The notes under the pieces are model-generated. The model was not told the DNA's origin. It was given only the letters and a program-made list of their open reading frames with translations, and made no database searches. The position numbers and the translations under genes were made by a program. 64,000 bases of DNA, taken from Fibrisoma limi BUZ 3 (lineage in GTDB: Bacteria > Bacteroidota > Bacteroidia > Cytophagales > Spirosomataceae). The stretch is from contig NZ_CAIT01000005.1 of assembly GCF_000296815.2 (NCBI RefSeq), forward strand, positions 1 to 64,000. The letters run 5' to 3'. Within the stretch, counting starts at the first letter, position 1, and every line of letters starts with the position of its first letter. Shown here one piece after another: positions 1,494 to 58,657 of this stretch.

Positions 1494-1504
1494 CTGAAAC
1501 TCGA

Positions 1505-40362: not shown

Positions 40363-40435
40363 TGAGTTGTTGCAGCCCTTGCGCTAATCCTTGCGAACTT
40401 TGCGTTTATAGTTTGTCTCCGGTGGAGATACATTC

Positions 40436-41428
40436 ATGACTGACACCTTGCAACTTACCGTCCTTATCCCGCTCCTGAACGAAGATGAGTCGCTGCCCGA
40501 ACTGCACGACTGGATCACACGGGTCGCGACGGAACAAAATTATACGTACGAAATTATGTTTATCGACGACGGCAGTACCGACAACTCCTGGGAGGTGATC
40601 GAACGGCTGGCCAGCGTCGATGCCCATGTACGGGCTATTCGCTTCAACCGCAACTACGGCAAAACGGCCGCGCTGCAAACCGGTTTTCTGGCTGCCCGTG
40701 GACAGGTCGTCATTACGATGGATGCCGACTTGCAGGACAGCCCCGACGAAATACCGGAACTGTACCGAATGATTACGCAGGACGGCTACGACCTCGTGTC
40801 GGGCTGGAAGCAGAAACGTTACGATCCGCTCAGCAAAACCCTGCCAACCAAGTTGTTCAACGGGGTATCACGCTGGATTTCGGGCGTTCAACTGCACGAT
40901 TTCAACTGCGGTCTGAAAGCCTACAAGCAGAAAGTGGTCAAGTCTATTGCGCCGACGCTGTACGGCGATATGCACCGCAACCTGCCGATTGTAGCCAACT
41001 GGAACGGCTTCCGGAAAATTGGTGAGAAAGTGGTGCAGCACCGGGCCCGTAAATACGGTACCACTAAGTTTGGCCTGGAGCGGTTTATCAACGGCTTTCT
41101 TGATGTGCTGGTTATTGCGTTCGTGCACCGATTCAGCAAACGCCCTATGCACCTGTTTGGCGGGCTTGGTACGTTGTCGTTCTTCGTCGGAACGGTCCTG
41201 ACAACGTACCTGATCGGCGAGAAGCTATATAACATTGCGCACCAGATCCGTTACCGAAACGTCACGGACAATCCACTGTTTTTCTTGGCGCTGGTGGCAA
41301 TTATCCTCGGTGTTCAACTGTTTCTGACGGGCTTTCTGGGTGAAATGCTTGTGCGCCAAAACCTGAATAAAACGGCAGATTTTCAGGTTGCCGAACGAAT
41401 TGGTTTTTTGGACAACATCTCCGTTTAA
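40436..41428 (+). CDS. Family 2 glycosyltransferase, polyprenyl-phosphate type
   Basis: This 330-residue inner-membrane enzyme has a GT-A domain first: LTVLIPLLNEDESLPELHDWI, the nucleotide-sugar motif MFIDDGSTDNSWEVIE, the FNRNYGKTAALQTGF segment and the metal-binding VVITMDADLQDSPDEI. LYGDMHRNLPIVANWNGFRKIGE is typical of dolichol/undecaprenyl-phosphate mannose or glucose synthases. Two C-terminal membrane spans (about 235-257 and 275-302) follow. It probably makes a polyprenyl-phospho-sugar for envelope glycans. It lies 73 bp after trmN6. Confidence 0.92.
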   Translation: MTDTLQLTVLIPLLNEDESLPELHDWITRVATEQNYTYEIMFIDDGSTDNSWEVIERLASVDAHVRAIRFNRNYGKTAALQTGFLAARGQVVITMDADLQDSPDEIPELYRMITQDGYDLVSGWKQKRYDPLSKTLPTKLFNGVSRWISGVQLHDFNCGLKAYKQKVVKSIAPTLYGDMHRNLPIVANWNGFRKIGEKVVQHRARKYGTTKFGLERFINGFLDVLVIAFVHRFSKRPMHLFGGLGTLSFFVGTVLTTYLIGEKLYNIAHQIRYRNVTDNPLFFLALVAIILGVQLFLTGFLGEMLVRQNLNKTADFQVAERIGFLDNISV

Positions 41429-41440
41429 AAATAAAACCGT

Positions 41441-41468
41441 TTGTTGTCAACGCAAGTTTGTATTTTTG
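41441..41468 (+). promoter_or_regulatory. ppa promoter (TTG-N17-TATTTTTG)
   Basis: TTG at 41441-41443 and TATTTTTG at 41461-41468 fit the Bacteroidota promoter. The predicted start near 41474 leaves an untranslated leader of at least 120 nt that contains a strong hairpin. Confidence 0.55.
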
Positions 41469-41480
41469 GAGCGTATACCC

Positions 41481-41540
41481 ATTCCGCCCCTGCCTTGTCA
41501 GTGCGCCAAGCGCATCAAACTGATCAGGCAGGGGCGGAAT
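41481..41540. repeat. Nested palindrome in the ppa leader
   Basis: Outer 15-bp perfect arms (ATTCCGCCCCTGCCT / AGGCAGGGGCGGAAT), a 2x2 internal mismatch, a TCAG/CTGA stem and an inner TGCGC-CAA-GCGCA hairpin. No T-tract follows. It could terminate the GT2 transcript, act as a leader structure for ppa, or be a REP-like element. Confidence 0.75.
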
Positions 41541-41632
41541 GTGTGTTTAAACAACCTGACAAACCAAGATTTTTACAGTTTTTTCTTTAAAATCGTATGC
41601 AAGCACAATTTGACGCTACTCAACTGGATCAA

Positions 41633-42244
41633 ATGGCTAAAACTCCTTCAAAAGCGCATCCCTGGCACGGTATCTCGGCGGGCGATAATGCTCCCGAAAT
41701 CATTACGGCCTTCATCGAAATCGTACCGACCGATACGGTCAAATATGAAATTGACAAAGAGTCGGGCTATCTCAAAATTGACCGCCCGCAACAGTATTCA
41801 AACATCATTCCGGCCCTATACGGCTTTGTGCCACGGACCTACTGTGGCGACCGGATCGCCCAACTGGCTTCCGAGCGGTCGGGGCGGCTGGTCGAAATGG
41901 GCGACGGCGACCCCCTCGACATCTGCGTACTGACAGAACGTGAAATTACCCACGGCGACATCCTGTTGCAGGCTATTCCCATCGGCGGTTTCCGGCTGAT
42001 CGACAAAGGCGAAGCGGATGATAAAATTATTGCTGTGCTGAAAGGGGATGCCATGTATGGGCAGTACCGGGATCTAAGCGAACTACCGGAAGCGGTTGTA
42101 AAGCGGCTGCGCCACTATTTCCTGACCTACAAAAACCTGCCAGGGGAGCCTGAGATTATGGAACTGGCCAGCATCTACGGCCGTGATGAAGCCCTGGAGG
42201 TGATTCGTACGTCCATGGACGATTATGCCGAAATGCCGGCGTAA
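41633..42244 (+). CDS. ppa: Inorganic pyrophosphatase (family I)
   Basis: This soluble enzyme of about 203 residues hydrolyses pyrophosphate to drive biosynthesis. It has HPWHGISAGDNAPEIITAFIEIVP, KYEIDKESGYLKIDR, YGFVPRTYCGD, the metal-binding signature MGDGDPLDICVL, KGDAMYGQYRDL and LRHYFLTYKNLPG. An in-frame ATG at 41597 would add 12 residues and is also possible. Family I members need Mg2+. A terminator follows. Confidence 0.93.
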   Translation: MAKTPSKAHPWHGISAGDNAPEIITAFIEIVPTDTVKYEIDKESGYLKIDRPQQYSNIIPALYGFVPRTYCGDRIAQLASERSGRLVEMGDGDPLDICVLTEREITHGDILLQAIPIGGFRLIDKGEADDKIIAVLKGDAMYGQYRDLSELPEAVVKRLRHYFLTYKNLPGEPEIMELASIYGRDEALEVIRTSMDDYAEMPA

Positions 42245-42295
42245 CGGTGGCTGTTGTGCAGAACATATGACGGTAACCAATTGAATTTGACTAAT

Positions 42296-42325
42296 AAATA
42301 GCCCGGTGACAGCCGGGCTATTTTG
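42296..42325 (+). terminator. Intrinsic terminator of ppa
   Basis: AATAGCCCGG / CCGGGCTATT stem of 10 bp, a 6-nt loop, then TTTTG. Confidence 0.9.
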
Positions 42326-42394
42326 TTGGGTACCATTTATCCGCCATATTGTACACTCAACATTTTTTGAGTCATGTGACGCATAAACTGCGTT

Positions 42395-42402
42395 TACTTT
42401 TG
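42395..42402 (+). promoter_or_regulatory. -7 box of sppA
   Basis: TACTTTTG fits TAnnTTTG. A TTTG lies 25 bp upstream, somewhat longer than usual. The start codon follows after 39 bp. Confidence 0.4.
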
Positions 42403-42441
42403 TTATTCATCCAATGACTAACCAACGCGAAATACCCATTC

Positions 42442-44211
42442 ATGCGACAGTTTTTTAAATACGTACTGGCCACCATCGTAGGCCTGTTACTGTTCTCGAT
42501 CGTTGGATTTTTGCTGTTGATCGGCATTGGCTCGGCGATTTCGTCGACAGCCGACCGGCAAACCACGGTGAAGGAGAATTCAGTGTTGAAGCTTAACCTG
42601 AACAGCCCTATTCAAGAACGAAGCGTTGACAATCCATTCAACGGATTTGGACCGTTCGATTCATCGGGCGACGCAATTGGCCTTGTTGAACTCAAACAGG
42701 CACTTAAAGCCGCTAAGGAAGACGATAATATCAAGGGCATCTATTTGCAAAGTGAATACCCTCAGGGCGGCTGGGCGTCGCTGGAGGAAGTTCGTAACGC
42801 CCTGATTGACTTCAAAACTTCGAAAAAGTTCGTGTATGCCTTCGGTGAAAACATGACCGAGAAAGGTTACTACGTGGCTTCAATGGCCGATAAAATCTAC
42901 ATCACCCCAACCGGCGGTCTGGAGTGGAACGGTCTGAATGCCGAATTGACCTTCTTCAAGGGGACGCTGGATAAGCTGGGTGTGAAGCCGGAAATCTTCC
43001 GCGTAGGGGAATTCAAGAGCGCTATCGAGCCGTTCGTGCGCGACGACATGAGCGAACCCAACCGGCTCCAGGTTTCGTCGTTCCTGAACTCGGTGAATAA
43101 TCACATGCTCGTGAAGGTAGCCGAAAGCCGTAAGGTACGTGTGGACTCGTTGAAGCAATACGCCGATAACCTGCGTATTGAAGAACCCGAGGACGCGCTA
43201 CGTACCAAACTGATTACCAACGTTGGCTACCAGGACGAGTTTGAAAGCCAGATCCGGAAGCAACTCGGTATCGAGGAAAAGAAAAAGATTAACTACATCT
43301 CACTCGGTAAGTACGAGGATGCGAACAAACCGGATGCTGAACTGGGCAATAGCCGAAACCGGATTGCAGTGATTGTGGCTTCGGGCGACATCACCGACGG
43401 TGAAAGCAGCGAAGGAACGATCGGCTCCGAAACCGTAGTGGAGGAACTGCGCAAAGCCCGGCTCGACGAGAAAGTGAAGGCCATCGTGCTACGTGTCAAC
43501 TCCGGTGGGGGCAGTGGGCAGGCGTCGGACGCAATGTACCGCGAGGTAGAACTGGCCCGCAGAGTGAAACCCGTCATCGGCTCTATGTCCGATTACGCGG
43601 CTTCGGGCGGGTACTACATGCTCATGGGTTGCAACCGGATCGTTGCCGAGCCGAACACCATTACCGGATCGATTGGCGTGTTCTCGTTGCTGTTCAATAC
43701 CGAAACGTTCTTCAAGGACAAACTGGGTATTACCTACGACCGCGTAAAAACTAACACGAACGCTGACTTTCCGGCTGTAACGCACGAAATGACACCGTTC
43801 CAGAAACAGGTGCTGCAGCGTGGTACGGATCGGTTCTACAAAATTTTTACGACGAAAGTGGCGAACGGTCGCAAACTGCCCATCGATAGTGTGAAAGCTA
43901 TCGCGGGTGGACGCGTCTGGACGGGTCAGCAGGCCAAAGCAATCGGGCTGGTGGATCAGCTCGGTGGCCTTGACGATGCTATAAAGGTCGCAGCCCAATC
44001 GGCCAAGCTGAAGGAAGGTGACTATCGGATACGCTACCAGCCTCGGAAGAAAGAGTTCTTTGAGCGGTTGTTCAGCGCATTTGGCGATAGTGAAGAAGCC
44101 CGGCTTCAAACACAGCTAGGCGAACTGGCCCCCTATGTTAAATACCTGAAGAAGCTCCGGACGATGGAGGGCATTCAGATGCGACTACCGTTCGACCTCG
44201 ATATTCGCTGA
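42442..44211 (+). CDS. sppA: Signal peptide peptidase SppA, 67-kDa type
   Basis: This 589-residue inner-membrane serine protease degrades cleaved signal peptides. An N-terminal membrane anchor (about 7-30) is followed by two tandem S49 halves. The first half supplies the general-base Lys192 in VGEFKSAIEPFVRDDMSE. The second supplies the nucleophile Ser362 in RVNSGGGSGQASDAMYRE, with downstream YAASGGYYMLMGCNRIVAEPNTITGSIGVF. Length and both catalytic residues agree with the duplicated E. coli form. A strong terminator follows. Confidence 0.95.
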   Translation: MRQFFKYVLATIVGLLLFSIVGFLLLIGIGSAISSTADRQTTVKENSVLKLNLNSPIQERSVDNPFNGFGPFDSSGDAIGLVELKQALKAAKEDDNIKGIYLQSEYPQGGWASLEEVRNALIDFKTSKKFVYAFGENMTEKGYYVASMADKIYITPTGGLEWNGLNAELTFFKGTLDKLGVKPEIFRVGEFKSAIEPFVRDDMSEPNRLQVSSFLNSVNNHMLVKVAESRKVRVDSLKQYADNLRIEEPEDALRTKLITNVGYQDEFESQIRKQLGIEEKKKINYISLGKYEDANKPDAELGNSRNRIAVIVASGDITDGESSEGTIGSETVVEELRKARLDEKVKAIVLRVNSGGGSGQASDAMYREVELARRVKPVIGSMSDYAASGGYYMLMGCNRIVAEPNTITGSIGVFSLLFNTETFFKDKLGITYDRVKTNTNADFPAVTHEMTPFQKQVLQRGTDRFYKIFTTKVANGRKLPIDSVKAIAGGRVWTGQQAKAIGLVDQLGGLDDAIKVAAQSAKLKEGDYRIRYQPRKKEFFERLFSAFGDSEEARLQTQLGELAPYVKYLKKLRTMEGIQMRLPFDLDIR

Positions 44212-44231
44212 TTGCTGATGAACAGTTATTG

Positions 44232-44262
44232 AAAGCGGACGGTTTAAACCGTCCGCTTTTGT
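44232..44262 (+). terminator. Intrinsic terminator of sppA
   Basis: AAAGCGGACGGTTT and its complement form a perfect loopless 28-bp palindrome ending in TTTTG. Confidence 0.88.
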
Positions 44263-44289
44263 AATTTAGAGCGGTTATCCTGTTTTGCT

Positions 44290-45480
44290 ATGCGTACGCT
44301 GCCCCCTAACCTTGATTTGTTTGCTTTGATTATCCTGCTCGGGGTAGCGCAAGGAGTATTTCTGGGGTTATTTTTTCTGACTGGTAGCCGGGGGCGGCTT
44401 GTTGCTAACCGGTGCCTGGGCTGGTTCAATCTGGCCCTGTCGGCTATCAGCGCCGAAATCTTTCTAAATTACACAAACTATACGTTCCAGGTGTTATGGA
44501 CGGTCGATCTGGCCGAACCATTCAACTTTGTGCTGGGGCCGCTGTTTTATTTCTACGTTTTCAGCCACATTTATCAGCGATTGCCCCGGGGCTGGGTTTT
44601 GCATTTACTGCCATTTGCCATCTGGCTGGTCAACGCCGTGACCTGGGTCTATCAGCCCCCGGAATTTAAATACAACTCGTACATCTATTCCTGGCATCCC
44701 GAAATAATGTACATACCCTCCGGATCGTATCTGGATGAGGATTTTACGGGCGTTCGTGGCTTAATCAACGAACTAACCTTATTAAGCTGCGTCATCTATG
44801 CAGCGACGGCATTATTGACCATCCGCAAGGCAGCGCAATCCGTCGCGACACGGGCTGCGGCCAAACTGCCGATGCTACGGTATTTGAGCTGGTTGTTTGC
44901 GTCGGTGCCGGTACTGATTACCGTTGTAAAGCTTCAGTTTTATAAAGACCTGGGCGATCACCTGCTGGCATCGTATATGGCGCTAACCATCTACGTAACC
45001 AGCTTTCTGGTCATGCGCGGTTCCAATTTTTTTCAGCCCGACCCGCCCGTGAAGGAAGCGGAGGGGAGCGGTGAATCGCGTAAAAAGTACGAAAAGTCAT
45101 CTATTTCGGAGGAGGTGGAAGAGGCCGTTCTGCAAAAGCTGAATCGCCTGATGACCGACGAGAAACCGTACCTGCAAAGTGATCTGTCGCTGCCCAAACT
45201 GGCCGGTCAGTTGAACACCACTCCGCACCACCTTTCGCAGTTGCTCAACGACCGGCTGCAGCAAAGTTTCTTCGACATGATGGCCGAATACCGCATTCGT
45301 GAAGCGAAGACCCTCCTCCATGATCCTGCCATCGCACACCTCAAGATCGACGAGATTGCCGAGCGGGTAGGGTATAACTCCACATCGGCATTCCATACGG
45401 CATTTAAACGAATCACCGGCCAGACGCCCGCCCAGTTTCGGGCATCTGCAACTTCGTCCCGGTCGGCGCGAACTTCGTAA
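44290..45480 (+). CDS. Membrane-bound AraC-family transcriptional regulator
   Basis: This 396-residue protein has seven or so N-terminal membrane spans (residues 10-250), a charged linker (EAEGSGESRKKYEKSSISEE), and a C-terminal AraC-type double helix-turn-helix of about 100 residues. The latter has LSLPKLAGQLNTTPHHLSQLLNDRLQQSFFDMMAEYRIREAK and IAERVGYNSTSAFHTAFKRITGQTPAQF. This fusion is common in Bacteroidota and probably lets a membrane-sensed signal control transcription directly. Targets are unknown; the divergent or adjacent acyltransferase genes are candidates by position only. Confidence 0.92.
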   Translation: MRTLPPNLDLFALIILLGVAQGVFLGLFFLTGSRGRLVANRCLGWFNLALSAISAEIFLNYTNYTFQVLWTVDLAEPFNFVLGPLFYFYVFSHIYQRLPRGWVLHLLPFAIWLVNAVTWVYQPPEFKYNSYIYSWHPEIMYIPSGSYLDEDFTGVRGLINELTLLSCVIYAATALLTIRKAAQSVATRAAAKLPMLRYLSWLFASVPVLITVVKLQFYKDLGDHLLASYMALTIYVTSFLVMRGSNFFQPDPPVKEAEGSGESRKKYEKSSISEEVEEAVLQKLNRLMTDEKPYLQSDLSLPKLAGQLNTTPHHLSQLLNDRLQQSFFDMMAEYRIREAKTLLHDPAIAHLKIDEIAERVGYNSTSAFHTAFKRITGQTPAQFRASATSSRSARTS

Positions 45481-45547
45481 CTATCGGAAAATAGCTTGTT
45501 TTGGGGCAAACAGGGCCACTTTTGTGCATCATCTTACTTGCAACGAA

Positions 45548-46771
45548 ATGGTTACTGCTTCCGCACATTCCCCAACCTTAACGCCCTCTGCGCTAACAGC
45601 GAGCCGCCGGTACGACCTGGACTGGCTGCGTGTATTCGCTATCATCACCCTATTGTTTTACCACACCGGTATGATCTACGTGAGCTGGGGGTGGCACGTG
45701 CAGAGTAAAGAAACCAGCCCCGTGTTTGAGCTAATTATGCGCTGGCTTCATAACTGGCGGATGCCGTTGTTGTTCTTTATTTCCGGGGCGGGCAGCTTCT
45801 TCGCCCTACGTAAAGGGTCTTTTGGAAAATATGCCGGTGAGCGTTTTCGGCGGCTGTTCATCCCGGTTGTATTCGGCATCTTCGTGATTGTACCTCCCCA
45901 GATTTATTACGAATGGCTGTTCCGGGGACGCTTCACGGGAAGTTACACCGAATTTTACCCCTACGTCTTTCAATTCGAATCCTACGAAGATGGTGGTACA
46001 GGCGGGGCCTTTAGCTGGCATCATCTATGGTTCGTGGCTTACCTGTTTCACTACGCCATTCTAAGCATTCCGTTGTTCTGGTTTCTAAAAACCGAACGTG
46101 GGCAGCGGCTCACCGACCGCATTGGTGGGCTCATCGCGCGAAAAGGGGGCGCTTTGTGGCTGGTTGTTCCTCTATTGGTGAACGACGTAGCGCTGGGTGG
46201 TTTATTTCCCGATGAAACTCACGCCCTCACCGACGACTGGGCGTATTTTATGAAGAATATGATCCTGTTCTGGCTGGGTTACGTACTGATCAGCCGACCA
46301 AATTTCTGGCAGATCATCACGGACCAACGCCGATATTTTGTCGTTGCGACGCTGATTTGTACCGTCATCATGTACGCGGCTCCTGTCGTGCTGGGCTACG
46401 ACCGTATTGATGGATCTGTACTGCTTACAACGTTGTACAGTTTCGTTAAGCTGGGACTAACCTGGTTCTCGGTGCTGATGACGGTGGCGTACGGCTACCG
46501 CTACCTGAATGTCAACCGACCAATTCTAGCGCACCTGACCGAAGCGGTTTATCCGTTCTACATTCTGCACCAGACGGTTATCGTCATCATTGGCTATTAC
46601 GTACTAAAAACGAGCCTGGGCGTGTACGATGGATTTCTGGTGGTGAGCCTTTCGTCATTTATCGTATCGGTCGCTATGTATCTTCTGCTGATCCGGCCGT
46701 TTAGCTTACCAAGGGTGCTGTTTGGGATGAAGGCCCGGAGTGTTAGGCAACTCAACGAAAAAGCTGCCTGA
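45548..46771 (+). CDS. Acyltransferase-3 family membrane protein
   Basis: This 407-residue polytopic protein has about ten spans. The N-terminal RYDLDWLRVFAIITLLFYHTGMIYVSWGWHV carries the family Arg and the invariant His in the first span. RMPLLFFISGAGSFFALRKGSFGKYAGERFRRLFIPVVFGIF and the GGAFSWHHLWFVAYLFHYAIL region are typical of the OpgC / glucan- or O-antigen-modifying branch. The ATG at 45548 starts the conserved domain at the usual distance; a GTG at 45524 is also in frame. Its 3' end overlaps the next, convergent acyltransferase gene by 20 bp. Confidence 0.9.
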   Translation: MVTASAHSPTLTPSALTASRRYDLDWLRVFAIITLLFYHTGMIYVSWGWHVQSKETSPVFELIMRWLHNWRMPLLFFISGAGSFFALRKGSFGKYAGERFRRLFIPVVFGIFVIVPPQIYYEWLFRGRFTGSYTEFYPYVFQFESYEDGGTGGAFSWHHLWFVAYLFHYAILSIPLFWFLKTERGQRLTDRIGGLIARKGGALWLVVPLLVNDVALGGLFPDETHALTDDWAYFMKNMILFWLGYVLISRPNFWQIITDQRRYFVVATLICTVIMYAAPVVLGYDRIDGSVLLTTLYSFVKLGLTWFSVLMTVAYGYRYLNVNRPILAHLTEAVYPFYILHQTVIVIIGYYVLKTSLGVYDGFLVVSLSSFIVSVAMYLLLIRPFSLPRVLFGMKARSVRQLNEKAA

Positions 46772-47954
46772 CTTTAGTGAGGAATAGTGGCGTATCGGCC
46801 GTGCTGCGTCGAAGCTGAAGTACCATACGCCAGATAGGCGTAGCACGGCGGCCATTCAGAACCTGCCCTACAACCGTGTCGCGGACGAACAAATCATAGC
46901 TGATTAGAGAAAGAGCGAACGTTATTGCCAGCCCTACAGCGAATTTACCGAAGGCTGTCCACGCTACCGGCATCAGCCAGATCTGAACGTACGTGCAAAT
47001 GAGCAGGTGAATGATATAGACCCAATACGATGATTGGGCGAGGTAGCGCGAAAGTGGACTGGGTTGGTCGAGGTAGCGCTGGAACAGACCAATCAGACCA
47101 AACGAAATTAACCAGGTACTGGTCGCCGACAGGGCCGAAAGATCTACGCGATACGTTGTTGGCAGGGCCGTGTTGTGGCTGATCTGCAACATCATTATGG
47201 CGTAGATCACAAACACGACCAGTCCCCCCAGGAGCAACCACCAGGCTGGTCGCTGTATTGAGGTCAACCAGTGGGGTTGCTGAAACAGGAGCCACCCAAA
47301 AACGAAATACATACCCAGCCCAGCCAGAATGATTGGGCTGGGGGTCAGGTCGCTGGGGGTGTAAAAAGTAGCGCCGGGCATGAACCACAAAAACAGCGCA
47401 CTGAAGGCAATCCAGACCGGGATAGCCCAGCCGGATACCAGCCAGCGGCTGAGGGTATGTCCAGGAAGCGTAGCTTTCAGCCCTTTGATACGTACGGCCA
47501 CGTACACCCCCACGTAGAATATAAGCAGGAAGTACAGAAACCACAGGTGAACGGTAGGCGTGATAACAGGCAGCAGAAACGTACCGGTCGAAAACCATTT
47601 GACGACCGGTGCCATCGTGTAGTTTGAAAAGCAGTAGACGTATGCGGCCTGAATCAGGATATTGATCGTGAAGTAGCCAATCAGAAAAGGGATCAGAATC
47701 CGGTTGGCCCGATTTTTTACGAACGTGACCACACCCCGGCGCTCAACCAGAAGGGCGGAAAAGAAGCCGGACATGATGAAAAAAGCGGGCATTCTGAACG
47801 TATGAATGAACAGAAACATCATGTCAAAAAAGGGATGATTCGCTATGGGGTCATCCGGGAGGTAAGCTGCCTCCATATAGGGACCGGCTGCGTGGAGTAC
47901 CAGCCCCATCAGCATCATAGTTGTTCTCAGATTGTCAAGCGAATGGTAGTGCAT
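46752..47954 (-). CDS. Acyltransferase-3 family membrane protein (second, convergent)
   Basis: This 400-residue polytopic protein is related in layout to the preceding gene. It begins YHSLDNLRTTMMLMGLVLHAAGPYM (conserved Arg and His), then TFRMPAFFIMSGFFSALLVERRGVVTFVKNRANRILIPFLIGYF and TVHLWFLYFLLIFYVGVYV, and ends in a long membrane region. It probably transfers acyl groups to envelope glycans; substrate unknown. It shares 20 bp of 3' sequence with the convergent paralogue, so the last codons of each are read from opposite strands. Confidence 0.9.
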   Translation of the reverse strand: MHYHSLDNLRTTMMLMGLVLHAAGPYMEAAYLPDDPIANHPFFDMMFLFIHTFRMPAFFIMSGFFSALLVERRGVVTFVKNRANRILIPFLIGYFTINILIQAAYVYCFSNYTMAPVVKWFSTGTFLLPVITPTVHLWFLYFLLIFYVGVYVAVRIKGLKATLPGHTLSRWLVSGWAIPVWIAFSALFLWFMPGATFYTPSDLTPSPIILAGLGMYFVFGWLLFQQPHWLTSIQRPAWWLLLGGLVVFVIYAIMMLQISHNTALPTTYRVDLSALSATSTWLISFGLIGLFQRYLDQPSPLSRYLAQSSYWVYIIHLLICTYVQIWLMPVAWTAFGKFAVGLAITFALSLISYDLFVRDTVVGQVLNGRRATPIWRMVLQLRRSTADTPLFLTKVRQLFR

Positions 47955-48118
47955 TGACAGTACGGATACAGTTTGGAGTAGTAAATTAAAGCCTCACCCC
48001 TCCTTTGAAAAACTAATCTACTGAATGGATGTCTATGTAGTTGATTATCAACCCGAATATGTAACCAGTAACGGCTCTTTTGTTTGAAAAGCCGTTGTAT
48101 CTGGTTCGGGAAAGAAAA

Positions 48119-49354
48119 TCATTTAGGTGTTCGCGTTGCAATCAGATCGGGCGTCTTGTCCCGGTCGTTTTTCACCGTCCCTCTTGAATAAATCTTGCCC
48201 TTAGTTACCAGTAAAATCCCGGATGCATGGGCCGTGCATAACGTTGTACCGCCATACACATTGACATAGCCGCCGTTATAGTATGTGCTTTTGATCCGGT
48301 TGCCGGGAGCCGCAAAGTCGATGGGTGGATTGCCCATGCAGGAGAATGAGCCACAGAAATTTCCACTCTGGTCATGAGCCGAGATCGTATAGAAATTGGT
48401 CGTGTTGACCCGGGCCGGTGAAATTTTATTGGCATCCCGATTCCCGTTTTCAACATTTCCCGCGGCTGCCGCTGCGTATATATCCCCACGGCTCATCATC
48501 CGCACAATGGCATCGTCGGCCGCCTGATTGGCTGCGAAGCCTAAGCTTAGGTTAACCACATCGCCGGACCGGGCGTTGGCTGTAACAAAATCAAGGCCGG
48601 CAATTGTATTGGCTACCGTACTGGTATTATCCTTCCCTTTTGTTTTCACTGGCACAACCCGGACACCGGCGGCAACCCCTACCAGACCGATTGAGTTATT
48701 GACCGCACCGATAATACCAGCTACCACCGTGCCATGCCCGTTCAGATCGTCCAGGGTCTGAGCGTCGGGGCCCGTTGTGAAAACGTTGTATCCGCGACTA
48801 ACATCGATCCGTAAGTCCGGATGGTCGAGATCAATCCCAGTATCCAGAATATACACGACGTTTGGATGGTTCGAACAGTCAACAAAACCACCTACTGAGT
48901 TAATCCCCCAGGGAACCTCCTGACCCGCTGCAGCTTTGGCTCCTTTTTCCGTGACCTCCCCCTCAATGACGTCCGGCAGCGACGCCTGATTAGGGGCAAT
49001 GTAGTCAATACGGGGGTCTTGCCGAAGAGCGGTCACCTGTTCGGTGGTCAGTTTGGCCGCAAAACCGAATAGCGCATGGCTAAAGACGTGTTGAACCGCC
49101 GTGGATTTAACATGAAACTGGGTTAGAAATTGATTGGTAAACTGTCGGTTTGCTTTTTGCAGATTTTGGAATGTCCGGTCAATTCGTGCGCCGGCCATTG
49201 GGTCTTTTTTGTAAACGACGATATACTCGCCTTCAATCGTCGTCGGAATGGTGGATGGATCGAAAGAGCTATCAATCGGGCGACAGCCGTTTGTCCATAC
49301 GAAAACCAAGGCAATTGCGCTTGTGGATAGAACTTTAAAAAATGAAAGCTTCAT
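48119..49354 (-). CDS. Subtilisin-like (S8) lipoprotein with the catalytic Ser replaced by Thr
   Basis: This 411-residue protein starts with a lipoprotein signal (Cys24 in TNGC). An I9-like propeptide (about 40-125: EGEYIVVYKKDP, GFAAKLTTEQVTALRQDPRIDYIAPNQ) precedes the S8 domain. Asp171 (VVYILDTGIDLDHPDL), His207 (LNGHGTVVAGIIGA) and the oxyanion Asn300 (AAAAGNVENG) are intact. Where subtilases have GTSMAAPHVAG the sequence reads GTTLCTAHASG, so Thr371 (codon ACG, 48242-48244) sits in place of the nucleophilic Ser. It may be an inactive protease, a weak threonine protease or a binding protein. Alternatively it could be a single-base error, since TCG to ACG is one change. Confidence 0.9.
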   Translation of the reverse strand: MKLSFFKVLSTSAIALVFVWTNGCRPIDSSFDPSTIPTTIEGEYIVVYKKDPMAGARIDRTFQNLQKANRQFTNQFLTQFHVKSTAVQHVFSHALFGFAAKLTTEQVTALRQDPRIDYIAPNQASLPDVIEGEVTEKGAKAAAGQEVPWGINSVGGFVDCSNHPNVVYILDTGIDLDHPDLRIDVSRGYNVFTTGPDAQTLDDLNGHGTVVAGIIGAVNNSIGLVGVAAGVRVVPVKTKGKDNTSTVANTIAGLDFVTANARSGDVVNLSLGFAANQAADDAIVRMMSRGDIYAAAAAGNVENGNRDANKISPARVNTTNFYTISAHDQSGNFCGSFSCMGNPPIDFAAPGNRIKSTYYNGGYVNVYGGTTLCTAHASGILLVTKGKIYSRGTVKNDRDKTPDLIATRTPK

Positions 49355-49585
49355 GATGGTAAAGGACAGAGCCTGTTAATCAATGCAATTATTGATTAAA
49401 TAAAGAAGCTTACAGACACTCAATAATGATTTATTTACTGGTTGGTATAGATAATTTGGTAAGCGGATGTAAAATGGTAGATAAGTTAAAATATACTATT
49501 CTGACTTATGTTAATTCATTCGTCTACATAAATTAGTTCGAGTGGGCAGACCTGAACATCAACAGGTCTGCTCAAGTGCTAACCA

Positions 49586-50860
49586 TCAAACCTGCTGATC
49601 TACCTTTTGATGGTGCGACTGCGATAATGGCGAGGAGGCTATCAAAGCGTTTTCAAGCCGGTCAACGGCGTCTTCAACGCTCCACCGCTCCCGAACAACC
49701 TGCCGACCATTTGCCGACAGCCGTTCGAAGAGAGCCGGATTGGTCAGGACCTGCTCCAGAGCTCGGGCTATTTCGGCGGGACTACGACCGGTCAGTAATC
49801 CATTGTACCCATTGATGACCGTTTCCCGAACCCCACCTTCGCCAATGGCTACCACCGGAAGGCCACAGGCGTTGGCTTCCAGTGGAGCGAAACCAAATGG
49901 CTCGAGGGTTGATGTGTACAACAGACATGAAGCGGTATTTAGCAGTTGTACTAACTCACGATGGGGAACGTACTGACGGGGTTCGAATGCTACCCCTTCC
50001 TGCTGGCTGAGGGCCAACAGACTTGCCATATAGTCTTTGTTGCCAATGTTGCCTACCCACACCAGTTTAGGACGGATGGATTCGGGAATACGGGCCAGCG
50101 TGCGAATAGCCGTGTCAACTCCTTTGGGCGGGTGAAATGATCCCAATCCCATCACGAAGTTTTCGCGGGCCATATCCAGAAACGGGAACAGGTCGACATC
50201 GACGCCCAGATAGCAGACCTCACCAGGGCCGCCATAGGCCCGTAGCAGGCTTTCGTTGCTGAAATACGAATTAACCAGAATTTTGTCATAGCTCTGGTAG
50301 TTTGTAAACTCCTCACGCACCAGCACGCGTGCCCGGTGCGTCCTAAGCAAGTCCTGCCAGTATGACGTGTAATAGGAAGGCTTCAGAATGTTGTGCTGAA
50401 TAGAGGGTAAGCCTTTCCAGATCAGGTTGGGATAAGCTTCGTATAGACTGCGGTTCGGCTCCTGCAGATACAGTACTTTAGGGATTGTCTTAACGAAACG
50501 GCCGATAAACGGCATGTTGAAGAAGTGGCACGAATTCGCAAACAGAATATCAAAATCACCCGCTTCAATCTCTTTGGCGCAGGCCTCGCAAAAGGCCATC
50601 ATTCGCTTGATACGGGTACTATTGAGGAACAGCAACGAACGAACATCATCTACGTATTCGATCCGTAGTCGGGTGGCAATGGTGAGGGGGAGTATGTGTG
50701 TACGAGCGACATACGCGTCTACATCCAGGAATTGGCTGTCGGCCAGTGACGATGTCCAGACTTCGATGTGATGACCTCGCTGAGCTAATCCTTTTATGTG
50801 CTGGTGTAACGCCCGGCTCGCTCCGCCACTGGGCAGATTGTGCCATACTGCGATTTTCAT
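49586..50860 (-). CDS. Family 4 glycosyltransferase
   Basis: This 424-residue GT-B enzyme opens MKIAVWHNLPSGGASRALHQHIKGLAQRGHHIEVWTSS (N-terminal acceptor domain). The nucleotide-sugar domain is marked by VMGLGSFHPPKGVDTAIRTLARI, VWVGNIGNKDYM, YVPHRELVQLLNTASCLLYTSTLEPFGFAPLEANACGLPVVAIGEGGVRETV (the E-x7-E signature) and a final RWSVEDAVDRLENAL. It likely adds a sugar to a surface polysaccharide or lipid. Donor and acceptor are unknown. It is isolated: no polysaccharide cluster surrounds it. Confidence 0.92.
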   Translation of the reverse strand: MKIAVWHNLPSGGASRALHQHIKGLAQRGHHIEVWTSSLADSQFLDVDAYVARTHILPLTIATRLRIEYVDDVRSLLFLNSTRIKRMMAFCEACAKEIEAGDFDILFANSCHFFNMPFIGRFVKTIPKVLYLQEPNRSLYEAYPNLIWKGLPSIQHNILKPSYYTSYWQDLLRTHRARVLVREEFTNYQSYDKILVNSYFSNESLLRAYGGPGEVCYLGVDVDLFPFLDMARENFVMGLGSFHPPKGVDTAIRTLARIPESIRPKLVWVGNIGNKDYMASLLALSQQEGVAFEPRQYVPHRELVQLLNTASCLLYTSTLEPFGFAPLEANACGLPVVAIGEGGVRETVINGYNGLLTGRSPAEIARALEQVLTNPALFERLSANGRQVVRERWSVEDAVDRLENALIASSPLSQSHHQKVDQQV

Positions 50861-51023
50861 AATTCGTAAAACTGCGTAATGGAATGGAGTTGTATTGAAA
50901 TGCCCTAAAATAAGATACCAAACGTAATTATTTTGCTGCTTGACTTACAACAAAACATTCTTATTTATTACACGAATATAGTAAGAATTGTGTACATGGT
51001 AGGTATCCGATGCTAACACAAGA

Positions 51024-51054
51024 TTGGCAAACTGATGAACTCTGCCTATTTTTG
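51024..51054 (+). promoter_or_regulatory. bioB promoter (TTG-N20-TATTTTTG)
   Basis: TTG at 51024-51026 and TATTTTTG at 51047-51054 with 20-bp spacing, the best promoter match in this part of the window. It predicts a start near 51060 and supports the ATG at 51074 rather than the earlier ATG at 51035. Confidence 0.7.
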
Positions 51055-51073
51055 GCTTTCGACTCTCAATACT

Positions 51074-52075
51074 ATGACCGCTATACGTAACGACTGGACT
51101 CGGGCCGAAATCTCCGAAATATACAATTCTCCTGTTCTTGACCTGGTGTACCGCGCTGCTACGGTTCACCGACAGTTCCACGATCCGCAGGAAGTGCAGG
51201 TCTGTACACTATTATCGGTCAAGACGGGCGGCTGTCCTGAAGACTGTGCTTACTGTCCGCAGGCGGCCCGTTACCATACCGGCGTGACGGTGCATAAGCT
51301 CATGGAAGTTGATGAGGTGCTGACGGCCGCGCAACGGGCTAAAGAAGCCGGTAGCACGCGATTTTGCATGGGCGCGGCCTGGCGGGAAGTTCGCGACAAC
51401 CGCGATTTTGACAAAGTACTCGATATGGTACAGGGCGTCAACGCAATGGGGATGGAGGTTTGTTGTACTCTCGGGATGCTGACCGAAAGCCAGGCCCAGA
51501 AGTTGAAAGATGCTGGCCTGTATGCCTATAATCACAACCTCGACACCAGCGAAGAATTCTACGGCGATATTATCAGCACCCGCACCTACGATGACCGGCT
51601 GGAAACCATTGGTCACGCCCGTAAAGCCGGTATTTCGGTCTGCTCGGGGGGAATTATCGGTATGGGCGAGTCCGATTCCGACCGGATTGGTATGCTGCAT
51701 ACACTGGCTACGCTACCTGAACATCCTGAATCGGTGCCCGTGAATGCACTCGTTCCGGTTGAAGGCACACCGCTTGAAGATCAGCCGCGTGTGTCGGTCT
51801 GGGAAATGGTACGGATGATCGCTACCGCCCGGCTCATCATGCCGAAAGCGATGGTAAGGCTCTCGGCCGGTCGCGTCCGGATGAGCATTGAAGAACAGGC
51901 ACTGTGCTTCCTGGCCGGAGCAAACTCGATTTTTGCCGGCGATAAACTGCTCACCACCCCGAACCCGGGCGATGACCTGGATCAGCAACTTTTCCAGACG
52001 CTGAATATCCGCCCTCGTCAGGCATTCAAGGATGCCAGTCAGCCTGCCATAAAGTTTGAACAGATTCCTGTCTGA
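51074..52075 (+). CDS. bioB: Biotin synthase
   Basis: This 333-residue radical-SAM enzyme inserts sulfur into dethiobiotin in the last step of biotin synthesis. The SAM-cluster motif [18 protein letters not shown] (CxxxCxxC, about 52-60) follows [50 protein letters not shown] and the arginine-rich RLSAGRVRM, with [20 protein letters not shown], are all typical. The sequence is full length. Other bio genes are not in this window. The following lipoprotein gene is 44 bp away and may be cotranscribed. Confidence 0.97.
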
Positions 52076-52119
52076 AGATACGATAATGGCAACTTGGGCG
52101 TTGGTCTGAAAAAAGACGT

Positions 52120-52617
52120 ATGCAATTTGTACAAAAGAAAGGGTGGCTGGTCGCTGCTTTGTTAACCGGCCAGTTGGCTCTGAACGCCTGCCAAACACAA
52201 TCTGACATCGTAACGCCTGATCAGGCAGTAGCCATCAATTCCGTAACGTCGGCATCTGACTGGACAGCCGTTAAAGCCGAGAACTGGACCGAGAATGCGG
52301 CAGATCCGGGCAAGCGGGTCGCTGGTTTTGTCGATAATGCCATCACGTCGTCTATCGTCGCCGATGGAATGGTGGTAGCGTTCTTCCGCGATGCCACGAC
52401 CAAAGAGATTAAAACCCTGCCCGCCGTAATCGACGGTCGGCTGATATCGTTCTCGTACCACGCCCTCAATGATAAGGGTATCATCAGCATCGAGCAGGAG
52501 AGCAACCAACCTGTTGCCGGTGAGTATCGCTGGGTAGTAGTGTCCAAGGAAGCACTCGCAACGGCCAATTGGAATGAGTACACGGCCGCTAAACAACGAC
52601 TCGGTCTAACTGACTAA
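52120..52617 (+). CDS. Putative lipoprotein, unknown function
   Basis: This 165-residue protein has a lipoprotein signal ending LALNAC (Cys about residue 24). The mature chain is strand-rich (VAINSVTSASDWTAVKAENWTEN, VADGMVVAFFRDATTKEIKTLPAVIDGRLISFSYHALNDKGIISIEQ) and ends WNEYTAAKQRLGLTD. I recognise no family. It follows bioB on the same strand and is closed by the long palindrome at 52630. Confidence 0.75.
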   Translation: MQFVQKKGWLVAALLTGQLALNACQTQSDIVTPDQAVAINSVTSASDWTAVKAENWTENAADPGKRVAGFVDNAITSSIVADGMVVAFFRDATTKEIKTLPAVIDGRLISFSYHALNDKGIISIEQESNQPVAGEYRWVVVSKEALATANWNEYTAAKQRLGLTD

Positions 52618-52629
52618 GTTTTCATGCTA

Positions 52630-52687
52630 TACACCTATTAGCCAGGAAGGCCCGGTACGTACCGGGCCTTCCTGGCTAATAGGTGTA
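52630..52687. repeat. Perfect 58-bp loopless palindrome
   Basis: Two exact 29-bp arms meet at a GTAC|GTAC centre with no spacer. I checked the reverse complement base by base. It lies between two convergent lipoprotein genes, 12 bp past one stop codon and 9 bp before the other, so it probably ends both transcripts. There is no T-run on either side. Palindromes this long and perfect are normally unstable in replication. Confidence 0.92.
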
Positions 52688-52696
52688 ATTGCGAGC

Positions 52697-53500
52697 TTAC
52701 TCAGCCACATCCAGATCAGCATTTACATCATCAAAGTGAGACAATAGTACACCGGCAAGCTGAACGGCCTTGTTCATGCGAACTTCCGGTTTTTCTTTTG
52801 TCTGGACTTTCAGATTCAGAATGTGATTATTGTACAGCACATGCAGCGTGTTTTTAGCCGGCTCCCAGATGGCCTTGTCCCCAACGCCCGTAATAGCAAC
52901 GCCGGTTACTGTGTTTACAGCCGGTTCGGTGAAGACCGTTGCCTGGGGCGGAATGCGGGCAACGGTCGTCGCCGTATCATTCTGGGCCAGCGTATCACGA
53001 CCCGCCGGGCTGGTTGGTAAAACGGGCGGCCGTTCAGAAACAGTTCCCGTTGGGTCGGGTCCAAACAGCGATTCAGCTCCTACATCGCCCATCTGACCAG
53101 TAGTAATTCCCTGTTTAGAGGGCTGGTACATCTTGTCAAAAATGTATTCCGCGTGGTAGATCGACGGATACGGTTTAGGACCGCCAAAAGCGACGCTTAC
53201 CTGATTGCCTTCCCACTCGAACGTACAACCGTTGCGGGCATCCGTAACGGATAGTTCTTCCAGTAAGCCCACATTAAACGTACTTTGAATCATCCCTTCG
53301 TCCAGTACGTTACACGGTGCATCATAGGCGAAGCGGTGGTCTGTGCTCAACAGCCAGGTGCCCGATACTTCCCGGGCCAGGTATGGGCTTCCGGTGCCGC
53401 CCGCATCGTTGGCGTCGTCGACGGTATTACCGTTATCGCCCTGGAAGCAAGAGGAAAGGCTCACCAGCGGAATGGCCAGCCACAGTAATTTGGTTTTCAT
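52697..53500 (-). CDS. Putative lipoprotein, unknown function
   Basis: This 267-residue protein has a lipobox LSSC (Cys about residue 18) after MKTKLLWLAIPLVS. The mature region begins with an Asp/Asn/Gly-rich linker (GDNGNTVDDANDAGG), continues ATWLL-like SGTWLLSTDHRFAYDAPCNVLDE and NGCTFEWEGNQVSVAFGG, and ends in Val/Leu-rich strands (NTLHVLYNNHILNLKVQTK) and an acidic tail. No family recognised; a surface or periplasmic role is inferred. It is convergent with the preceding lipoprotein and shares the palindromic terminator region. Confidence 0.75.
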   Translation of the reverse strand: MKTKLLWLAIPLVSLSSCFQGDNGNTVDDANDAGGTGSPYLAREVSGTWLLSTDHRFAYDAPCNVLDEGMIQSTFNVGLLEELSVTDARNGCTFEWEGNQVSVAFGGPKPYPSIYHAEYIFDKMYQPSKQGITTGQMGDVGAESLFGPDPTGTVSERPPVLPTSPAGRDTLAQNDTATTVARIPPQATVFTEPAVNTVTGVAITGVGDKAIWEPAKNTLHVLYNNHILNLKVQTKEKPEVRMNKAVQLAGVLLSHFDDVNADLDVAE

Positions 53501-53630
53501 AACGTGTACGTAGTAAATCCAGCGTTTTTGATACTACCAATTTGCCCGCCGGGTTGTTTGATTTACCAATACAATTTGACGAATTCGGCCTCAAGCCAGG
53601 AGGACGTACCGACAATTCAAACCGGGATAT

Positions 53631-53638
53631 TATTTTTG
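53631..53638 (+). promoter_or_regulatory. -7 box of the lpxH-like gene
   Basis: TATTTTTG 18 bp before the ATG at 53656. It lies inside the longer ORF starting at 53542, which argues for the later start. Confidence 0.5.
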
Positions 53639-53655
53639 TACGTTGCACTGAACGA

Positions 53656-54444
53656 ATGTCTGTTATCGAAACGATTGCTTTGCCCACTGGCCGAAAGGTT
53701 TATTTTGCTTCTGATTTTCACCTGGGGGCTCCCCCGCTTGAGAAGAGCCGCGAACGGGAACAGGCGGTTGTGAACTGGCTGCAGTGCATTGAAGCTGATG
53801 CCGAAGTTATTTTCCTGGTGGGCGATGTGTTCGATTTCTGGTTCGAGTATAAGCGGGCTATTCCCAAGGGATTTATCCGATTACAGGGTAAACTGGCACA
53901 ACTGACGGATGCAGGTACGAAAGTCGTGCTGTTCACGGGGAACCACGATATGTGGATGAACGATTATTTTACGCAGGAACTGGGTATTCCGGTGTATCGT
54001 CAACCACGGCAGTACGAGATCGGCGGCAAACGCTTCCTGATTGGGCACGGCGACGGACTTGGTCCCGGCGACTACGTATACAAACGGCTGAAACAGGTTT
54101 TTGAAAACGACATGGCCCGGCGACTGTTTCGCTGGGTACACCCGGACGTAGGTATTCGGCTGGCGCATGCATGGTCGCACCGGAGCCGGATCAGCAACAA
54201 CGAGAAGGGGGAAGACGAATTTCTGGGTGAGGACCGTGAATGGCTGATGCTTTACTGTCGGGAGGTGGAGCAGCGGCAGCACCACGATTTCTACATCTTT
54301 GGCCACCGGCACCTGCCCCTCGATCTGGCCGTAGCCGCAAGTAGTCGGTACGTGAACCTCGGCGAATGGGTATCCGCCCGGACGTACGCCGAATTCGATG
54401 GGACAGACCTGCACTTGAAGACCTGGAAATCTGGTCAGGAGTAA
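53656..54444 (+). CDS. lpxH: UDP-2,3-diacylglucosamine diphosphatase (LpxH-like metallophosphoesterase)
   Basis: This 262-residue calcineurin-like phosphoesterase probably makes lipid X in lipid A synthesis. The motifs are DFHLGAPPLEKSREREQ, FLVGDVFDFWFEYKRAIPKGF, FTGNHDMWMNDYF, FLIGHGDGLGPGDYVYKRLKQVFENDMARRLFRWVHPD and YIFGHRHLPLD. All dinuclear metal ligands are present. The ATG at 53656 is consistent with the -7 box; the earlier ATG at 53542 would add 38 unmatched residues. Assignment to LpxH rather than a paralogue rests on the GDYVYK and WVHPD context. Confidence 0.85.
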   Translation: MSVIETIALPTGRKVYFASDFHLGAPPLEKSREREQAVVNWLQCIEADAEVIFLVGDVFDFWFEYKRAIPKGFIRLQGKLAQLTDAGTKVVLFTGNHDMWMNDYFTQELGIPVYRQPRQYEIGGKRFLIGHGDGLGPGDYVYKRLKQVFENDMARRLFRWVHPDVGIRLAHAWSHRSRISNNEKGEDEFLGEDREWLMLYCREVEQRQHHDFYIFGHRHLPLDLAVAASSRYVNLGEWVSARTYAEFDGTDLHLKTWKSGQE

Positions 54445-54492
54445 TCCCGATCAGGTGTAGCGAATCTAGTGCCGCACGCACCGCCAACTTAA

Positions 54493-55218
54493 TTACTGAT
54501 TCTGCAAAATGTCTTTGCGGGATACGTTCTCACGCGGGGCTTTGTTCAGTTCGCTCCGCCACTCCTTGCTCTTTAAGTCGCCCCGTTTGACCGATCGGAT
54601 AAAATTAGCCCAGGCAAAGGGGTTTGTGAAGGCAAACGTAGTAGCCTGGCTTCGGTTAATGATGTTCTCCCGCCCGAAAAACTGCTGATTGACAAAGTTC
54701 TGGTGGTTTGCTACGGCGCCCATCGGCATTGTAGCGGCCTGACGCAGAATGGCCTGCGGGTCCAGGTTTTTAGCCAGGTTTTCGCGTTCCTGCTCGTCGG
54801 GAAGCTTCAGGTTTACGAACGCATTCTTAAACAGTTCTTCCGTAGCATACGGGTATACCTTCACTTCGGCCAGCGTTTTTACGTCTTCCTGCAGCGCAAC
54901 CACCGCCGAATAGGTTACGTCGCTGAGACGACGCGGGATAATGTGATACTGTGTTTTAAAACCGACGTAGCTGAAAATGATACTGTCGCCGGGGAATACG
55001 GGCAGGGCAAAGTAACCGTTCTGGGCTGACAGAACGCCTTTTCCGGCTTTAGGAATGTAGATATAGGCACCCGGCAGCGGCTCGTTGGATTTGCCACCGG
55101 TGATGAATCCTGTAAAGGTAATCTGTCGATCCTGACCCTGCCCGAACGCGGTTGTAAAGAACCCCGTCATCACGAGCAGACCCAGCCCGACCACTATATG
55201 AGTCAACGCTTGTTTCAT
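54493..55218 (-). CDS. Exported carboxypeptidase-regulatory-like (CarboxypepD_reg) domain protein
   Basis: This 241-residue protein has a signal peptide (MKQALTHIVVGLGLLVMTGFFTTAFGQ). A CarboxypepD_reg-like beta-sandwich follows (about 32-115): FTGFITGGKSNEPLPGAYIYIPKAGKGVLSAQNGYFALPVFPGDSIIFSYVGFKT. A helical C-terminal half (EELFKNAFVNLKLPDEQERENLAK) follows. Such domains are usually the N-terminal plug-side extension of TonB receptors; here it occurs alone, as in many Bacteroidota surface proteins. Function unknown. Confidence 0.85.
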   Translation of the reverse strand: MKQALTHIVVGLGLLVMTGFFTTAFGQGQDRQITFTGFITGGKSNEPLPGAYIYIPKAGKGVLSAQNGYFALPVFPGDSIIFSYVGFKTQYHIIPRRLSDVTYSAVVALQEDVKTLAEVKVYPYATEELFKNAFVNLKLPDEQERENLAKNLDPQAILRQAATMPMGAVANHQNFVNQQFFGRENIINRSQATTFAFTNPFAWANFIRSVKRGDLKSKEWRSELNKAPRENVSRKDILQNQ

Positions 55219-55343
55219 AGCAAAAGACCAACGGAGGTCAGAAAGACGGTACTATTATACAAAACAACGAATGAATTGGTAATGTCCGATATAATAGCAA
55301 ATAATTTAAGAAAAGTTAGGAATTACCAGTTCAAGCGGTAGCG

Positions 55344-56156
55344 TTATGTAAACAACTTCAGAAACGTAATGATAAACGGTGCGGCCAGTAGAAGCCCATC
55401 AAACCGGTCCAGAAAGCCACCGTGGCCCGGAATGCTGCTACCCGAGTCTTTAATGGCGATGCTCCGTTTGAACAGCGATTCGACCAGGTCGCCGTAGGTA
55501 CCCGTTACGACGATAATGGCGCCAACGCAATACCACTGCCACGGGCGCAGCTCGGGGGCGTAGAAAGCCAGTCCCAGGGCAATCAGGGCGGCTGCCGCTG
55601 CACCCCCGAGGGCTCCTTCCCACGATTTCTTTGGGGATACTCGTTCAAATAATTTTCGACGCCCAAATTTGGTTCCGGCGAAGTAAGCGCCAATGTCGCT
55701 GGCCCAGAGCAGCAACAGACAACCCAGAATAATCATTGGGTGGTAGGTGCCGCCCCGTAGCGCCATCACAATCAGAAGCGCAAACGGTACGGCTACGTAA
55801 ATGATGCCCAGGAACGTAAAGCCGATGTTGGTAAAGGGCTTCATATCGCGTTTTTTGTACAGCTTGATCAGAAAGATCATCGACGAGGCCGGGCAGATTA
55901 GAAAGTAGTTATCGAATCCAATCATCCGCTTTTCGATGAAGAAAGCCAGCGCACACACAAAACACCCGACAATGGTGCCGTAGACGGTCAGGGGCTGGAA
56001 GCCGTCGAGGCCGAGCAGCCGATAAAATTCGAGTTGGGTTAGGGCACTAATGACACAGAACAGCAGCGCGAAAGTCCAGTCCTGGTACCAGATGCAGAAT
56101 AAAATTACCAACACCCCAACAACGGCCGCAACGACCCGTTGTTGGAGGTTAGTCAT
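55344..56156 (-). CDS. cdsA: Phosphatidate cytidylyltransferase
   Basis: This 270-residue inner-membrane enzyme makes CDP-diacylglycerol from phosphatidate and CTP, the branch point of phospholipid synthesis. About eight hydrophobic segments precede the family signature LFKRSIAIKDSGSSIPGHGGFLDRFDGLL near residue 230, with the conserved Lys, Asp, Gly, Pro and Asp. Additional motifs include LLLWASDIGAYFAGTKFGRRKLFERVSPKKSWEG. The ATG at 56156 begins right after the DUF2007 stop, so the genes are coupled. Confidence 0.95.
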   Translation of the reverse strand: MTNLQQRVVAAVVGVLVILFCIWYQDWTFALLFCVISALTQLEFYRLLGLDGFQPLTVYGTIVGCFVCALAFFIEKRMIGFDNYFLICPASSMIFLIKLYKKRDMKPFTNIGFTFLGIIYVAVPFALLIVMALRGGTYHPMIILGCLLLLWASDIGAYFAGTKFGRRKLFERVSPKKSWEGALGGAAAAALIALGLAFYAPELRPWQWYCVGAIIVVTGTYGDLVESLFKRSIAIKDSGSSIPGHGGFLDRFDGLLLAAPFIITFLKLFT

Positions 56157-56157
56157 G

Positions 56158-56376
56158 TTAGCTAAACGTTGCTTCATTCTCCAGAATTACTTTGGCCAGC
56201 ACGGCGTGGCTGACCGGTACGTGCACTTCACTTTTACCCCAGCCAATGGTTGGGTAACTACTGCTTTGCCGATTCACCACTACCGCCGGAATGTCGTGTT
56301 CGGCGAGTAGTGCCTTGGCCAGTTCGGCCCGATGCGGCATTGGGGACACATATACTTTTTCCCAGTTTTCAGTCAT
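56158..56376 (-). CDS. DUF2007 domain-containing small protein
   Basis: This 72-residue protein belongs to the DUF2007 (putative signal-transducing) family: WEKVYVSPMPHRAELAKALLAEHDIPAVVVNRQSSSYPTIGWGKSEVHVPVSHAVLAKVILE. The fold resembles a PII-like or ACT-like alpha/beta module. The ATG at 56376 is used because the ORF extension upstream runs through repeat DNA. It ends 2 bp before cdsA, an arrangement that suggests a link to phospholipid synthesis. Confidence 0.85.
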   Translation of the reverse strand: MTENWEKVYVSPMPHRAELAKALLAEHDIPAVVVNRQSSSYPTIGWGKSEVHVPVSHAVLAKVILENEATFS

Positions 56377-56411
56377 GATGAGGTTGTGTTTGCCGGGCAG
56401 GGGCGGTTTGT

Positions 56412-56494
56412 GGTTTACGGTTTTCGGTGAAAAGCCAATCTGATTAAATCTACGCGGATTCTTCCGTGAACCGTAAACCGACAACCGTGAACCG
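56412..56494. repeat. Heptamer-type inverted repeat, copy 3
   Basis: GGTTTACGGTTTTCGG on the left and CCGTAAACCGACAACCGTGAACC units on the right are imperfect inverted copies of the GGTTTAC/GGTTTTC heptamer array. Located between the CPBP and DUF2007 genes. Confidence 0.65.
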
Positions 56495-56502
56495 ATGATC
56501 GG

Positions 56503-58645: not shown

Positions 58646-58657
58646 CCTACTGACTAC

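Follow-up and report, generated by a model that had tools for sequence, protein, structure and literature searches.

Subtilisins E and BPN' and the proteinase K group (MEROPS S8A) share with the protein described here (P0001 of Fibrisoma limi BUZ 3) a fold with an I9 propeptide, the residues Asp32, His64 and Asn155, and the GT motif in register. P0001 differs from them in having threonine for Ser221, alanine for Pro225, one more residue ahead of Gly219, cysteine at position 191 and altered pockets; in addition, its N-terminus is of lipoprotein type and its C-terminal tail is short. In the engineered subtiligase (S221C/P225A), alanine at position 225 eases the crowding around the larger nucleophile, and the structures have a shortened helix with residue 221 shifted by 0.5 Å (PMC7921005). 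P0001 and three threonine-bearing relatives (the Thr members) resemble subtiligase/peptiligase in combining a bulkier replaced nucleophile with P225A, but they are natural and carry threonine instead of cysteine; the likeness is one of sequence. Threonine was also put in place of the catalytic serine in engineered S195T trypsin and thrombin, where most of the activity was lost, easing of a neighbouring clash restored part of it, and no natural case among trypsin-like proteases is documented (PMC8695361). These enzymes, unlike P0001, have a trypsin-like fold and are laboratory-made. The C. difficile proteins CspC and CspA are subtilase paralogues with a changed triad that occur beside an active one; unlike P0001, they have two changed triad residues and a jelly-roll insertion (PMC6636752 and PMC3567191). 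No report of a subtilase with the catalytic serine replaced by threonine (S221T, Asp-His-Thr) was found in the literature covered, which includes few subscription papers.

Gene product and catalytic site of P0001

The gene for P0001 was located at 48119-49354 (minus strand, ATG start) of the window, which is the whole 64,000-nucleotide stretch of DNA analysed, and it encodes a lipoprotein-type subtilase of 411 amino acids with threonine at the nucleophile position; the features of P0001 given below lie on the same strand. A signal peptide with a putative lipobox (49283-49354) was inferred from the N-terminus. TNG precedes Cys24 (codon 49285-49283), the lipobox being judged by eye against the canonical consensus, and Cys24 is invariant in 25 of 25 aligned rows, as the conserved N-terminal cysteine of lipoproteins. 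The I9 propeptide of subtilisin zymogens was recognized at residues 44-123 (48986-49225; PF05922 Inhibitor_I9, E 8e-9, 36.5 bits compared to a cut-off of 21.2) and was predicted with high pLDDT over most of its length. The Peptidase S8 domain, residues 166-386 (48197-48859), matched PF00082 with E 1.4e-26 and 93.9 bits compared to the curated cut-off of 21.8, which places P0001 in the S8 fold. A ColabFold model built on an alignment of 25 proteins (mean pLDDT 87.2, pTM 0.86) was closest to pro-subtilisin E (3whi; Z 39.8, rmsd 2.4, 329 aligned residues), and the 50 PDB matches listed for the predicted model were all subtilase-type (Z 33.5-39.8).

The first-pass annotation described the Asp, His and Asn of the S8 site as intact, and this was borne out by the alignments: Asp171 (48842-48844), His207 (48734-48736) and Asn300 (48455-48457), which correspond to subtilisin Asp32, His64 and the oxyanion-hole Asn155, respectively, are each kept in all 76 proteins compared. 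The nucleophilic serine of the GTS motif is missing, and the threonine annotated in its place (Thr371, codon ACG, 48242-48244) was confirmed at the position of Ser221. In phmmer it was paired with the nucleophile of subtilisin BL, a serine, and with the corresponding residue of subtilisin E, printed as alanine in 3whi, and two further alignments agreed that no other serine aligns there. Ser378, considered as a candidate nucleophile, was rejected; the alignments place it at position 228, in the same helix. Because the nucleophile position is occupied by Thr371, P0001 was not classed as a serine peptidase. Thr371 is internal within the predicted subtilisin fold, unlike the N-terminal threonine nucleophile of Ntn-type enzymes, and the nucleophile is the sole changed site of the Asp/His/Asn/Ser set, whereas more than one triad residue is lost in CspC-type proteins.

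Deviations among the neighbours of the motif, also annotated at first pass, are real: it reads GTTLCTAHASG in P0001. Ala375 (48230-48232) occupies position 225, Gly368 (48251-48253) is a one-residue insertion before GT[ST], and Cys339 (48338-48340) occupies position 191. Cys339 may conceivably serve as a new nucleophile, but it was treated as a structural or S'-side change, because only one residue separates it from position 189 of the S2' pocket and because His64 and Asn155 are kept in the clade to which P0001 belongs.

An eight-member clade with threonine or serine at position 221

When 222 genomes of the family were searched (best eight candidates per genome), a clade of eight members was found in three of them. 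It consists of P0001, L002 and L003 in the window's own genome (G000, 7.6 Mb), L011 in the genus mate G001, and L063, L064a, L064b and L065 in G237, a genome of another genus. L064a and L064b are tandem Thr-subtilases (480-1742 and 1890-3098 of L064, minus strand), and the wider family, at E 1e-60, has eight or more representatives in G237. The eight clade members scored 529.8 to 706.3 bits in the order search, compared to 425.6 bits for the next protein. Clade-level scores were found in 3 of 390 genomes of the order draw, and in the class draw the clade was not found outside G000 (1 of 395 genomes), with the best four candidates per genome taken in both draws. The two named loci that matched belong to Algoriphagus species (51% in the best segment). 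There were 16 PF00082 matches in G000, and the motif listing gave serine in 14 and threonine in two (P0001 and L003).

Single residues were compared in 76 distinct proteins including P0001 (loci L001-L099), drawn from ORFs of 340-480 amino acids with an HG[TS] motif and a phmmer E no higher than 1e-45. Duplicate rows, ORFs outside this length range and listed matches without a locus sequence were excluded. Position 221 was found to be threonine in four proteins and serine in 72, and all four with threonine belong to the clade. Position 225 is alanine in the eight clade members and proline in the other 68, and position 191 is cysteine in the same eight and asparagine in the other 68. In the tree alignment, all eight clade rows and none of the 30 outside rows have the insertion at Gly368, and Ser125, Gly127, Gly154, Gly219 and Thr220 are kept throughout the clade. 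Thr221 and Ala225 occur together in all four Thr members, the pairing of replaced nucleophile and P225A known from subtiligase; P225A need not be the partner of threonine, since the four Ser members have it too.

The motif is GTTMATAHASG in L064a, which has GTTxxTAHASG in common with P0001, and GTTAATAHLSG in L003 and L064b. The Ser members read GTSMATAHMAG (L063), GTSMATAHLSG (L011), GTSMSTAHLAG (L002) and GTSMSAAYMTA (L065). The last of these (489-1712, minus strand) has tyrosine for His226 and alanine for Gly229. Another S8 protein of G000, L120 (G000:C9:1938089-1938889, minus strand), has GSSYATAYFSG, a motif with alanine and tyrosine where Pro225 and His226 would be expected.

A one-base sequencing or assembly error at Thr371, with TCG read as ACG, was considered. 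ACG is one base from TCG, which is the commonest codon outside the clade (24 of 68), and no close orthologue of P0001 that could confirm the threonine was found in the 222 genomes of the family (best relative 51% identical). However, threonine is found at the same place in three other genes, with the codon ACC and with two of the genes in a second genome, and the residues around the motif of P0001 deviate as well. Because other genes and another genome carry the threonine, an error was rejected as highly improbable.

The tree was calculated from 38 rows chosen from the 76, with the motif columns removed, and the eight clade members were joined with 100/100 support. P0001 branches first and has a long end branch (0.8); the other seven are joined with 91/91, below the star mark of the tool, and within the clade the four Ser members make up one side (90/88). 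The four Thr proteins represent three lineages with mutual identities of 43-50% and do not form one clade in the rooted tree. Forcing them together costs 6.87 log units, and monophyly of the Thr members is not rejected at 0.05 (AU p 0.06). Threonine may have had one origin followed by loss, or several origins.

The catalytic serine is encoded by TCN in all 68 outside proteins. Within the clade, the threonine codon is ACG in P0001 and ACC in the other three Thr members, and the serine codon is TCA in three members and AGC in L065. A change from TCN to AGC needs two simultaneous changes or an intermediate, for example threonine or cysteine. Codon parsimony gave 16 steps with threonine and 17 steps with serine at the clade root. 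Among 1000 bootstrap trees the threonine root was cheaper in 968, the two roots tied in 31 and the serine root was cheaper in 1, and when L065 was removed the two roots cost 15 steps each. The codon argument for a threonine ancestor is a pointer only, because a single gene, L065, carries it. Threonine may have appeared early in the history of the clade, against a P225A background, with serine coming back later; for a return to serine to make sense, the site must presumably have stayed usable. Such a history, if true, would provide a living example of a catalytic serine crossing between the two serine codon sets through threonine. How catalytic serines switch codon sets is a question reportedly raised by Brenner in 1988, and the presence of TCA, ACG, ACC and AGC at one catalytic site makes such switching testable with real proteins. 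Among the S8 proteins of G000 (L106-L121), L106, L107 and L109 use AGY for the catalytic serine and the remaining 11 Ser members use TCN, and both codon sets thus occur within S8 of one genome.

Substrate cleft and conservation of the threonine

Positions 96-104 and 128 lie at the substrate cleft of subtilisin, where the clade differs from its relatives. All 30 outside rows have Gly100, Gly102, Leu96 and Phe189, and 29 of them have Gly128. Gly100, Gly102, Leu96 and Gly128 are lost in all eight clade members, and Phe189 is lost in seven and kept in P0001; position 156 is a further cleft difference from ordinary relatives. Near the S' side, where the comparison with subtiligase applies, the clade has the insertion before 219 in eight of eight members and changes at position 189 in seven and at position 222 in three. 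Substrate-cleft or pocket roles are given for positions 189, 217, 222 and 225 in PMC7921005. Three of the four Thr members (P0001, L003 and L064b, not L064a) have lost both His67 and Met222; none of the 72 Ser proteins has lost either.

L003 and L064b, which come from two genera, are orthologues at syntenic places. They are 75.9% identical by BLAST (74-76% as the overall range), and the nearest shared genes on the two sides are collinear and 74% and 82% identical. At this place G237 has two extra genes, one of which is L064a. The Nei-Gojobori dN/dS for the pair was 0.070, a rough value because the dS of 2.64 is close to saturation. Identity in L003/L064b was 60/65 in the cleft, 174/205 in the rest of the catalytic domain and 72/154 in the propeptide. 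Four pairs of Ser proteins, orthologues or near-paralogues, gave for the same three parts 56/61, 157/194 and 92/153 (L005/L068), 59/61, 189/200 and 99/137 (L004/L066), 61/62, 179/193 and 116/138 (L006/L042), and 56/64, 179/200 and 102/140 (L002/L011), respectively. The cleft was the best-kept part in L003/L064b and in three of the four Ser pairs; in L002/L011 it was kept approximately as well as the rest. When pairs with 45-68% identity outside the cleft were compared, the cleft was more conserved than the rest in all 336 outside pairs and in 2 of 24 clade pairs, the cleft positions being hand-picked and the pairs mutually dependent. Out of this range were 99 of the 435 outside pairs and 4 of the 28 clade pairs.

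At the level of sequence, these comparisons indicate that the specificity cleft is diversified between the clade paralogues, that the catalytic core is fixed, and that the cleft is held in the Thr orthologue pair. They also indicate that threonine is a conserved variant in part of the clade and not an accident. The check on homologues proposed at first pass had a divided outcome: threonine is present in both members of the one Thr orthologue pair found, and serine is present in 72 of the 76 proteins, these 72 being paralogues or more distant relatives of P0001.

Function and genomic context

The likeliest reading, with a probability of about 0.5, is that P0001 is an active subtilase that uses threonine as its nucleophile and is probably narrow in specificity or self-processing. 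The clade is narrow and diversifying. In its members, which would be exported lipoproteins, Pro225 became alanine, and half of those known have Thr221. The O-gamma of Thr371 would still act as the nucleophile through Asp171 and His207, and Ala375 would give room to the helix and the added methyl group, as P225A does for Cys221 in subtiligase. P0001 would cut its own I9 propeptide at least once, and it probably cleaves few substrates, because its cleft differs from that of ordinary relatives (96-102, 128, 156 and the insertion before 219). A usable site is suggested by the presence of threonine, and never alanine, glycine or asparagine, in four proteins that belong to three lineages and all retain Asp, His and Asn. 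The leaning to catalysis comes from the conserved Asp/His/Asn and the P225A background, to which the serine-codon pattern adds a little.

The first-pass annotation had left two options, a threonine variant or a pseudoprotease. The finding that homologues keep threonine in part of the clade favours the former; the latter stays a rival, to which we give an appreciable probability short of even odds. In that case the threonine methyl group would block catalysis, and the unprocessed pro-form at the surface would serve as a binding or signalling module resembling CspC, or as a propeptide-capped binder of the kind represented by PCSK9. Evidence pointing this way, and against catalysis, is the loss of His67 and Met222 in three of the four Thr members and the small number of clade pairs (2 of 24) with a better-kept cleft; relaxed catalysis would also produce the cleft pattern of the clade and its second-shell changes. 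The activity lost in the trypsin-like threonine variants and the changes at positions 226 and 229 of the Ser member L065 likewise speak against catalysis. The best fit of the predicted model to unprocessed pro-subtilisin E is weak support, because the whole pro-form was modelled. CspC itself (G485, T170, D105) leaves its propeptide unprocessed yet functions (PMC6636752). However, CspC lost two of its three triad residues, whereas Asp, His and Asn are invariant here, and the changed residue is threonine in each of the four cases. The cleft is also the best-kept part of the Thr orthologue pair, though a binder could show the same.

The interest of a Thr-subtilase rests on whether Thr371 works. 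If threonine is the nucleophile, acyl transfer may be favoured over hydrolysis in P0001. Somewhat more tentatively than the rival above, P0001 could be a natural threonine-nucleophile peptidase with a subtilisin fold and a P225A background, from a lineage that later went back to serine (with AGC in one branch), and maybe biased to acyl transfer. The Thr and Ser paralogues of the clade, which all have P225A, are matched pairs for comparison, and the clade would offer a natural scaffold for the engineering of peptide ligases.

P0001 lies in a segment of approximately 2.9 kb (46738-49637) together with an Acyl_transf_3 gene (46752-47954), as found by BLAST of the window against L123 and by Pfam. 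This segment is absent at the syntenic place (L123) in the sister species G001, where the flanks are 81-86% identical. The absence of P0001 and its neighbour from the sister species, together with the long end branch, would fit a decaying paralogue, that is, a gene becoming a pseudogene in an expanded family. Against this, the 411-residue frame is intact and each of its two domains scores above the cut-off, L003 and L064b look to be under purifying selection, and P0001 has GTTxxTAHASG in common with L064a; decay was thus considered unlikely. When ORFs of at least 90 amino acids were compared in the stretches L100-L105 and positions 40001-60000 of the window, no flanking gene common to non-orthologous members was found at E 1e-20, and only orthologous places shared any. 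With no flanking gene in common, the context therefore gives no substrate. The adjoining genes code for another Acyl_transf_3 protein and for a glycosyl transferase. The two Acyl_transf_3 genes, at 45524-46771 on the plus strand and 46752-47954 on the minus strand, converge with an overlap of 20 bases (46752-46771).
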